This document shows, piece after piece, positions 1 through 2,270 of a stretch of DNA of 64,000 bases (the stretch's first letter is position 1; each line of letters begins with the position of its first letter). The notes beneath the pieces were generated by a model. It was not told the DNA's origin and did no database searches. It saw nothing but the letters and a program-made list of their open reading frames with translations. The DNA comes from Rahnella woolbedingensis. GTDB lineage: Bacteria > Pseudomonadota > Gammaproteobacteria > Enterobacterales > Enterobacteriaceae. Location of the stretch: positions 1 through 64,000 of the forward strand of contig NZ_RAHH01000022.1 in NCBI RefSeq assembly GCF_003602095.1. Reading direction: 5' to 3'. A program made the translations under genes and the position numbers.

Positions 1-555
1 CGTATTTTTTACTTCTTCTTTCAATTGCTGAATTGTTGGATGTTTCATCTTACATAGTAATTTATAATTATGATAACATAATTCCCAAGCTTTTTTATAC
101 TCAACATTATTTGGCTGGTCATTTTTTATCACTCCATAAAGATCCTTTTGAGCAGCCATTTGTGCAAGTTTTTTAGGGCCCCATGGAATATCTCCACCTC
201 TACATTCAAGTGCTTTAGTTGCTAAGTCATCACTATCACTAATACAGTTCACGATCAAAGAATTTTCATATAAGGAGGCTGCAACACAAGCAGCTTGATA
301 TGGGTATCCGATATTTAGTAAGAGCCACGCACCTCTGAAATCGCTCATGGTTCGCTTCATAAATGCAGAAGCCACTTTAAGGGATAATTTATTTCTCTCG
401 CTTTTCACAAGAAATGGAGCCTTAATAGCAAGAAGCATGCATTTTTGCGCTAGGGAATCCCAATCTTTGACCAACTTAAAGTTATTCTCTAAACACGAAG
501 CCTCTAAATAGGCTAAGTGCTCCCAGTAATAATCCGGCCAGTTATCTTTATTCAT
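1..555 (-). CDS. Hypothetical protein (possible DUF5677-like), N-terminal part, cut by window edge
   Basis: An open frame of 185 codons starts at ATG 555 and runs without a stop to base 1, so only the N-terminal part is visible. The product is soluble, with no signal peptide or obvious membrane segment. Around residues 85-115 it reads FMKRTMSDFRGAWLLLNIGY followed by a YQAACVAASLYEN stretch. This spacing of a charged helix, a Gly turn and an Ala-rich helix ending in Tyr-Glu resembles DUF5677-type proteins, but that is a weak pattern match. Base composition is much more AT-rich than the flanking chromosome, suggesting transfer. It lies just beyond a cos-like sequence and is transcribed away from it, the slot where P4-like satellites hold variable cargo, often anti-phage genes. 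The function is unknown; a defence role is inferred from position only. Confidence 0.7.
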   Translation of the reverse strand, partial: MNKDNWPDYYWEHLAYLEASCLENNFKLVKDWDSLAQKCMLLAIKAPFLVKSERNKLSLKVASAFMKRTMSDFRGAWLLLNIGYPYQAACVAASLYENSLIVNCISDSDDLATKALECRGGDIPWGPKKLAQMAAQKDLYGVIKNDQPNNVEYKKAWELCYHNYKLLCKMKHPTIQQLKEEVKNT

Positions 556-647
556 ATGTCACCTAGACTTCTCACTAATGTGATAAAAAATTAAAATACA
601 AAAATAAACATTCCACAACGTCCTACATTAGAGCATTAAGATACTCT

Positions 648-671
648 GCGCGCAATTCTCCCCGCCTGCCC
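648..671 (-). other. P2/P4-type cos-like sequence
   Basis: Read on the minus strand the segment is GGGCAGGCGGGGAGAA followed by TTGCGCGC. The P2/P4 cohesive-end region, as I recall it, has GGCGAGGCGGGGAAAG followed shortly by CTGCGCGC, so both the G-rich block and the GCGCGC block are kept at nearly the same spacing. It lies downstream of sid and ogr, as cos does in P4. The match is from memory, not alignment. If right, it lets a P2-like helper terminase cut and package the element. Confidence 0.5.
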
Positions 672-696
672 GCTGCTGACTTAGCTCGCTGGTTTT

Positions 697-800
697 AATG
701 CATGAAGAAAAACCGCTGAAAGCCCGTGTAGCATGGGGTTAGAGCCATTTTGAGCACTCCCGAATGCATGCAAAACCATGCACCCTATGCATGCAGAGCT
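697..800. repeat. Cluster of GCATGC palindromes next to cos
   Basis: ATGCATG occurs at about 699-705 and ATGCATGC at about 764-771 and 798-805, with a further CCATGCA between the last two. The palindromes are too dense for chance in 110 bp. Position beside a cos-like sequence suggests terminase or replication protein binding, but nothing in the sequence proves it. Confidence 0.45.
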
Positions 801-930
801 CACAAGGGCAGGCTAGCCAGAGAAAAGGCTGTCAGGAGGGACGGTTTTGCACCGTATTAATGAAAAATACCGCCTTCTGCGAAAGCGGCACTTGAGATTA
901 TTTTTTTGGGGAATTGAAACGAGCTGAAAT

Positions 931-1107
931 TTATATTTTCCGCTTTAGATTTTCTCTTTTGACGATTTTACTGACGCTTTCATTTGTTTTAAATGCGCAT
1001 GAGCATTCCAGCCTGGTGCACTGATAATTAGACTCCTTAGTCTGTTCGGTGATATAACGGCTTGTGCGAATGTGAGAAACAGAGCTGCAAAGCGGGCAGC
1101 GCATCAT
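931..1107 (-). CDS. ogr: Ogr/Delta-family phage late-gene activator
   Basis: A 58-aa protein, too short for most gene callers. It begins MMRCPLCSSVSHIRTSRYIT and has four cysteines at 4, 7, 30 and 35, the CX2C-X22-CX4C zinc pattern of phage P2 Ogr and P4 Delta; the SRYIT segment after the first pair is a family signature. Ogr/Delta proteins bind upstream of P2 and P4 late promoters and recruit host RNA polymerase through the alpha subunit. P2 Ogr has 72 residues and P4 Delta is a double-length tandem version, so this is a short single-domain form with a truncated tail. It starts 6 bp after the sid stop, consistent with a sid-ogr transcript. An alternative ATG lies one codon downstream. Family assignment is firm; activity is untested. 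Confidence 0.88.
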   Translation of the reverse strand: MMRCPLCSSVSHIRTSRYITEQTKESNYQCTRLECSCAFKTNESVSKIVKRENLKRKI

Positions 1108-1113
1108 TTGCTA

Positions 1114-1899
1114 TTACTCCTTGTTTGAATCGATACGCTGGGAGAGTTTTTGTGCCAGTAATTGCCTTTTTATCGGGCTTTGCAATAGCGCCATATCGAC
1201 ACCAGGCAGCGCAGGAGAATGCATCCCGATTTTCTCCAGCACAGGTTCTGCATCCATGTTGAACTGACCTATGTGAGCCGCACCGACTAACGCGTTGCCA
1301 ATTTCAGCGCTGATAATCTTGGCGGGCTCTACATAATGACCGGATTGTGTTTCCTGATAACTTACGGTGGATAACGCCAGAAGTTTAAGTTTCACAGCTC
1401 GCACAAGCGCCGGACTGAGATGGTTGATGGCCATGCGCCACTGTGTATCAGCATAGGCATTCAGTGCGCTGCGGTGGGCGCTAATCAACGCATCCCCGGC
1501 ATTAGCACAATGCAACATCGCCGACTGTTTCTCGACATTCAATTCTTCAATCAGGTCATCGAACTCTTTAACTAATCCCTGCTGAATAGCCCGCTGACTG
1601 TGTACGTTCTTGAGTTCGTCAGTCATAACCCCGCGTGACTTGCGAAAACGCGAACGCCAGCTCTCTTCGTTCTCTTTGATTTCGCTGTTCGCCGTTTCTT
1701 TTTCCTGGGCGCATCGCGCAATCGAACTTTCAATTTCTTCAAGTGCCTGCTTTTTCTTCGCAAACGCCGCTTTGGCCTGCTCAAAGTGTTGGATAGCACC
1801 TTCCGCGTTTCCTGATGATGGCTTTTCGTTGTGACCGGCTTTGACCTGAAGAAAGTCCTGGATAACAGCTTCGACGGTTTTGGTTGAATCGGGTTTCAT
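1114..1899 (-). CDS. sid: P4 Sid-like capsid size determination protein
   Basis: The 261-aa product is largely alpha-helical and charged, with a predicted coiled segment at about 35-100. Local matches to P4 Sid are clear: an Asp/Glu-Trp-Arg-x-x-Phe-Arg stretch, GVMTDELK (GVLSDELK in P4), a VKEFDDL segment (VQEYDNL), a LVRAVKL segment (LVRAMHL), GHYVEPAK (GYVAPEK) and a C-terminal EPVL motif. In P4, Sid forms an external scaffold that makes the P2 helper's capsid protein assemble a small T=4 head fitting the satellite genome and excluding the helper's. The ATG at 1899 follows TGAGG by seven bases; an upstream TTG in frame lacks such a site. P4 Sid has 244 residues, so this looks full length. 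No replication genes follow it to the right, so the element appears truncated. Confidence 0.85.
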   Translation of the reverse strand: MKPDSTKTVEAVIQDFLQVKAGHNEKPSSGNAEGAIQHFEQAKAAFAKKKQALEEIESSIARCAQEKETANSEIKENEESWRSRFRKSRGVMTDELKNVHSQRAIQQGLVKEFDDLIEELNVEKQSAMLHCANAGDALISAHRSALNAYADTQWRMAINHLSPALVRAVKLKLLALSTVSYQETQSGHYVEPAKIISAEIGNALVGAAHIGQFNMDAEPVLEKIGMHSPALPGVDMALLQSPIKRQLLAQKLSQRIDSNKE

Positions 1900-2270
1900 G
1901 GCATACCTCAGCAATATGTTGTCAATGTGAGGATATTGTGGGGAGGCTGGCCCGTTACCGCAAAGAAAGCCGCAACCCGCAAGGGTTTGCGGCTTTTTTA
2001 TTACCTGATACCTGCTGATACTCGCCTATCCATCCTGTTGTTTTTAAAGTGTATTGCAGAACTTATCCTGCTACACACTCCATTACTTCCCTCGCATATT
2101 CTGCCCAAAAACCAATCATCCTTATCTCGCACTGCTGCCCGTTTTGCACATAAGTTTGCCGCTTGACCACAATGAACCCAGTCGTCATATTCAAAATATA
2201 GAACGATCTTTTTACCCTCGTCGCAGCCGGTCGGGGGGTTGTTTTTATTGGGTACCACCGGAGAACACTT
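1900..2270. other. Satellite/host junction and promoter region of the binding-protein gene
   Basis: No gene is supported in these 371 bp. The first part is the sid leader; I found no TGT-N12-ACA Ogr-binding pattern. A strong hairpin with a T-run sits at 1972-2003. The rest is the upstream region of the binding-protein gene, whose ribosome site is the GGAG at about 2260. The exact satellite boundary and any attachment repeat are not visible. Confidence 0.5.
1972..2003 (+). terminator. Rho-independent terminator at satellite/host junction
   Basis: AAGCCGCAACCC and GGGTTTGCGGCTT form a stem around a GCAA loop, followed by TTTTTT. It terminates rightward transcription although no plus-strand gene precedes it here, so it may be the leftover end of a gene interrupted or removed when the satellite inserted or decayed. 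Confidence 0.7.

Follow-up and report, generated by a model that had tools for sequence, protein, structure and literature searches.

The left end of the DNA analysed here, a stretch of 64,000 nucleotides from Rahnella woolbedingensis that we call the window, very probably carries a P4-like satellite that inserted at the 3' end of ssrA and was immobilised by a later deletion. The window corresponds to bases 1–64,000 of contig C22, one of 113 contigs in a draft assembly that has sid at three loci, and its base 1 is the contig end. On the minus strand, read from right to left, it contains genes for the capsid-size determination protein Sid (1899–1114) and an Ogr/Delta-type late activator (1107–931), a P2/P4-type cos region (approximately 800–646, with a cohesive-end-like stretch at about 646–672) and, in the passenger slot beside cos, an incomplete ORF (555–1). 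The sid-delta-cos order on one strand is that of P4, with psu missing. From 1952 rightwards the DNA is chromosomal, consisting of the downstream flank of ssrA followed by a solute-binding-protein (SBP) gene (SBP_bac_3, E=3e-39). An earlier note, made from the letters of the sequence, had described a P4-type satellite remnant with sid, ogr and cos in P4 order on one strand, and the gene matches and cos scores given below bear this out; of the extent it assigned, 1–2003, the part up to 1951 is satellite, and 1952–2003 is ssrA-flank DNA.

The frame at 1114–1899 is intact, and its 261 aa product matches PHROG 6165 in a profile search (E=6.4e-57), the solved P4 Sid chain (7jw1_E, E=6e-28) and P4 sid in tblastn (27.9% identity over about 222 residues, E=9e-17). 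The label of PHROG 6165 is 'Psu-like', yet the P4 gene matched is sid. Like the earlier note, we place the start at the ATG at 1899, because a TAA separates the upstream TTG position from this same ATG in the copies on contig C30 of the source genome (own C30) and on contig C22 of another Rahnella genome (G013:C22). The Sid search proposed in the earlier note thus returned a match; the result it had named as fatal, a frame without a Sid match, was not what we found. Its suggestion of a little-sampled branch holds as regards divergence from P4 (Sid 28% identical), but not as regards sampling, with eleven longer copies at 78–95% DNA identity and a Sid match in 59 of 392 family genomes.

The zinc-finger pattern CX2C-X22-CX4C, described in the earlier note, is present in the translation of 931–1107, which has a single zinc-finger domain and matches the Ogr/Delta domain PF04606 with 64 bits (cut-off 26.3); NCBIfam NF007241 gives 64.8 bits, below its own cut-off of 116. 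Of 14 Delta copies compared, counting the window, 12 are 58 aa long, among them those of nine of the eleven longer relatives, so the window's short form is no private truncation; the own C30 and G013:C22 copies encode 69 aa. The cos region is kept in seven aligned copies, again counting the window. Against the joined ends of P4 it has an alignment score of 78 (maximum 40 in 200 shuffles), and against P2 a score of 53 (shuffle maximum 36). The source strain also carries P2-like prophage genes, as the earlier note had advised looking for, with full-length portal genes on contigs C34 and C38. Two P2-like prophages from this genome have a cos next to their portal gene, and comparison with these gave 102 and 114, where 100 shuffles for each reached no more than 40 and 38. 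Judged by these scores, the satellite cos is closer to its likely own-genome helpers than to P2 or P4, and its sequence appears to suit a P2-like helper. Near the satellite on own C30 there is also a short P2 portal fragment (C30:4222–4323).

Given that Ogr and cos are common to P2-like phages, the region could in principle be a piece of a P2-like prophage and not a satellite. We give this reading almost no credence: the annotation of P2 lists no Sid, the longer relatives have P4-type neighbour genes, and the full-length portal genes are on contigs other than C22. The region is not part of a complete P2-like prophage, the other finding that would have spoken against a satellite.

The block 648–1951 recurs in eleven longer P4-like satellites. 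Four are from Rahnella (L022–L025: own C30, 93%; G013:C22, 93%; G012, 88%; G003, 78%) and seven from IMG/VR contigs (L094–L100, 92–95%). All eleven have an integrase match, and ten contain alpha, orf106, cI and vis; the piece fetched for the remaining one (L096) ends just past vis. In G012 and G003 the satellite is at ssrA, with int beside ssrA, while in own C30 and G013:C22 int is beside tRNA-Gly, on the alpha side. Neither psu nor epsilon had a match in the eleven longer relatives, and psu had none in the window element. Since the longer relatives are also without a psu match, the missing psu looks native to this sublineage; de Sousa and Rocha (PMC8628076) describe psu-less P4-like variants. 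Our literature search found no paper on P4-like satellites in Rahnella.

Two further Sid-bearing elements are present in the source genome. That on own C30 (L023 7688–14597) is a second P4-like satellite with vis, cI, orf106, alpha and int, and its Sid differs from that of the window by 7% (93% identity). Contig C13 (L026 10290–18662) holds a third, divergent element with partial matches to alpha, epsilon and cI and with both P2-type and P4-type integrase matches.

The deletion is located by two homology boundaries that meet at 1951/1952, 52 bp upstream of the sid ATG. Homology of the block to the four Rahnella and seven IMG/VR copies stops at 1951, and homology to the empty ssrA sites of two other Rahnella genomes (G004 and G005) begins at 1952. 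The bases 1952–2010 match the DNA downstream of ssrA in relatives, including the terminator, and form a truncated attR flank without the att core. In other elements attR reads CCCCCAGCCCACCAAA, followed by flank bases; the window lacks both, and the best match to the 16-base core within 1600–2400 has five mismatches, versus none in the L045 control. The vis-cI-orf106-alpha part, including the alpha primase/helicase, is thus missing from the window, as are the att core and some 29 bp that follow the end of ssrA. The lost satellite part, measured to the att core, would be 6.2 kb if like that of G003 and 7.1 kb if like that of G012, giving a deletion of roughly 6–7 kb. No shared repeat was seen at the junction. 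We also considered a deletion made by the integrase via a pseudo-att site, an idea prompted by a junction that falls at the att core in another genome (G013:C41), and rejected it: the junction in the window is some 29 bp away from the end of ssrA and has no core, which makes a plain deletion the simpler reading.

A junction of this kind might instead be an assembly artefact, the contig fusing a satellite copy to the ssrA flank while the cell holds a complete element. The draft state of the genome, with its 113 contigs and three sid-bearing loci, lends this some plausibility, as do the ends of C22 and C57, the contig that carries ssrA, both of which fall in satellite DNA. Nevertheless, it is highly unlikely, as the satellite side is unique (its Sid is 93% identical to that of C30), no repeat common to both sides is visible at the junction, and the same half is deleted in other genomes.

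In G004 and G005 the matches to the ssrA flank and to the SBP region are about 30 bp apart, which defines the empty site. Both matches are on one contig in 11 of 14 Rahnella genomes; two of these 11 have the empty site, and in the other nine the matches are separated by 1.4 to 15 kb, which marks the ssrA-SBP site as an integration hotspot. Decay at the hotspot (L042–L048) is varied, and G001 and G002 have an int fragment and the end of alpha there, the reverse of the window's pattern. In the source genome, ssrA is on C57 together with a P4-like int that runs to the contig end. This integrase is 33.8% identical to P4 Int over 400 residues, and the int and ssrA stretch is 93.5–94% identical to G003 and G012. 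It is very likely the other end of the window element. The ends of C57 and C22 share no overlap of 8 to 150 bases, so their join is drawn from synteny. The earlier note had advised looking leftward for a P4-like integrase; one is present beside an attachment gene at the C57 end, its adjacency to C22 being subject to that same synteny.

These observations make the following history very likely. A P4-like satellite of a Rahnella sublineage inserted between ssrA (tmRNA) and the SBP gene. A later deletion then fused a point 52 bp before the sid ATG to the chromosome about 29 bp beyond the ssrA end. Comparison with the longer copies and the empty sites shows that it took the attR core together with vis, cI, orf106 and alpha. 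The present order would be ssrA, int, assembly gap, passenger ORF, cos, delta and sid, provided that C57 and C22 are joined as proposed. The element is probably unable to replicate by itself or to excise by its own integrase, although its passenger gene may still act.

In intact P4/P2 systems, the sid-delta operon is activated by the Ogr of the helper or the Delta of the satellite. Sid then causes the P2-like helper to assemble small capsids, into which the satellite is packaged by the helper terminase, starting at a helper-like cos. A perfect TTGT-N12-ACAA box, the consensus that we take to be the Ogr/Delta site, ends 36 bp before the sid ATG in all eleven longer copies, and the corresponding box of P4 lies 33 bp before sid. 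In the window, 16 of the 20 bases of the box remain (1936–1951, minus strand); the half distal to sid was replaced at the junction, where three of four bases differ. With half of the predicted box gone, activation of sid is probably lost or weak. The evidence on the box comes from a sequence scan of this sublineage, P4 and 12 family loci whose starts are approximate; a perfect box was found in six of these 12 (scan of about 220 bp), at varying distances from the tblastn match start, so that either the box is not universal in the family or the approximate match starts mislead. We take the satellite to be immobile and its sid promoter to be crippled.

Alternatively, int, passenger, cos, delta and sid could naturally make up a functional minimal satellite that obtains replication and activation from a helper or from the C30 satellite. 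Both sid and delta have intact frames, C57 carries int, and the longer C30 satellite could supply alpha and delta in trans; moreover, sid lies next to ssrA-flank DNA a second time, in G013:C41. We nonetheless regard such a satellite as very unlikely. The junction has no attR core and cuts the activator box, none of the seven IMG/VR relatives has the short form (all reach at least vis beyond sid), and in G013:C41 the breakpoint differs and sid is broken, which fits independent decay. Specifically, G013:C41 keeps flank bases that are lost in the window and lacks the sid start that the window keeps. The ssrA and int of G013 are on a separate contig (C6), and about 3.3 kb more lies between the C41 flank copy and the SBP region. 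Two separate deletions, one in the window and one in G013:C41, are the simplest reading.

Decay by deletion remains the preferred account. The alpha half is missing in three of the seven genomic copies of the block 648–1951 found in the genus. In G002, cos, delta and only the end of sid are found next to P4-like gop, beta and cII. This locus (L029 5298–8828; beta 70%), with its gop, beta, cII and sid remnant, is near tRNA-Leu, and the 18 kb fetched contained no match to a P4-type int. We surveyed alpha at 40 of the 77 listed Sid places, 39 of them in other genera and one in Rahnella G006. An alpha match of at least 600 residues was found at 33 of the 40, and shorter ones at four (about 310 residues in L103 and L137, 112 in L130 and 178 in L133). 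No alpha match was detected in the remaining three, L104 (where a contig end cuts the locus), L119 and L128. In L113, one of the 33, alpha is on the sid strand at a distance of 6 kb and is probably part of an adjacent element. L119 and L128 are Sid and delta loci with an int match.

The window element resembles P4 (NC_001609) in its sid-delta-cos order on one strand, its homologous Sid and its cos-like ends, and its longer relatives share with P4 an Ogr/Delta-type box at a nearly equal distance from sid. It differs from P4 in the low identity of Sid (28%), the length of Delta (58 aa versus 166), the missing psu, the deleted alpha/cI/vis half and its integration at ssrA; the integration site of P4 is a tRNA-Leu gene. 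Compared with the longer Rahnella and IMG/VR satellites, it is psu-less alike and lacks vis, cI, orf106, alpha and the full box; the passenger slot of several of those satellites holds genes that are known to act in defence or are candidates for it. P4-like variants without alpha have already been described as Type B and C by de Sousa and Rocha (PMC8628076). Like them, the window element is a satellite set without alpha, but it has also lost vis, cI and the attR core, by one visible deletion.

The passenger ORF (1–555, minus strand) is partial, with 185 codons, because it is cut by the end of contig C22. The Pfam, PHROG and PADLOC profile searches used window positions 3–555, a query that is shorter than the ORF by one codon. 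All matches in Pfam (ChAPs, E=0.0046; DUF5677, E=0.023) and PADLOC (an AbiB fragment, E=0.018) were sub-threshold. No match was found in PHROGs, NCBIfam or PDB, in 391 other family genomes, in a phylum sample (397 other genomes) that is partly shared with the family sample, in 72,556 plasmids, or among viral contigs in a pattern-limited scan. A single-sequence AlphaFold model was set aside (mean pLDDT 39.9). The cargo gene announced in the earlier note is a candidate by its slot position, with no recognised relative.

In E. coli P4-like satellites, anti-phage genes are located between psu and int, next to cos, according to Rousset et al. (PMC9122126). We scanned the ten main slot ORFs from nine of the eleven longer relatives, and nine of the ten match a PADLOC model at an E-value threshold of 1e-3. 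The matches comprise HerA and SIR2, OLD/Gabija-like, Lamassu LmuB-like, PtuA-like, pAgo-associated SIR2 and candidate PDC-M36A proteins; the own C30 slot ORF matches solely via a C-terminal stretch (SEC-C motif), and the G012 slot ORF had no PADLOC match. Because the window ORF itself matches nothing, its candidacy as a defence gene is a guess from position. A more speculative proposal, which we consider rather unlikely, is that the ORF is a new anti-phage gene retained in the chromosome after the satellite was locked in, so that the dead satellite would serve as a host-owned defence locus, and that P2-like helpers could also begin to package adjacent chromosomal DNA from the helper-like cos that is left.

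The window element is a decayed P4-like satellite, stripped of roughly half its genes, and a fairly ordinary fossil. It is also a clear snapshot of satellite immobilisation, in which the replication half, the attachment core and half of the activator box went in a single deletion that left cos, delta, sid and the passenger behind. With a second Rahnella genome, where another deletion removed the same half, it forms a short natural series. Of wider interest is the orphan passenger, which may protect against phages.
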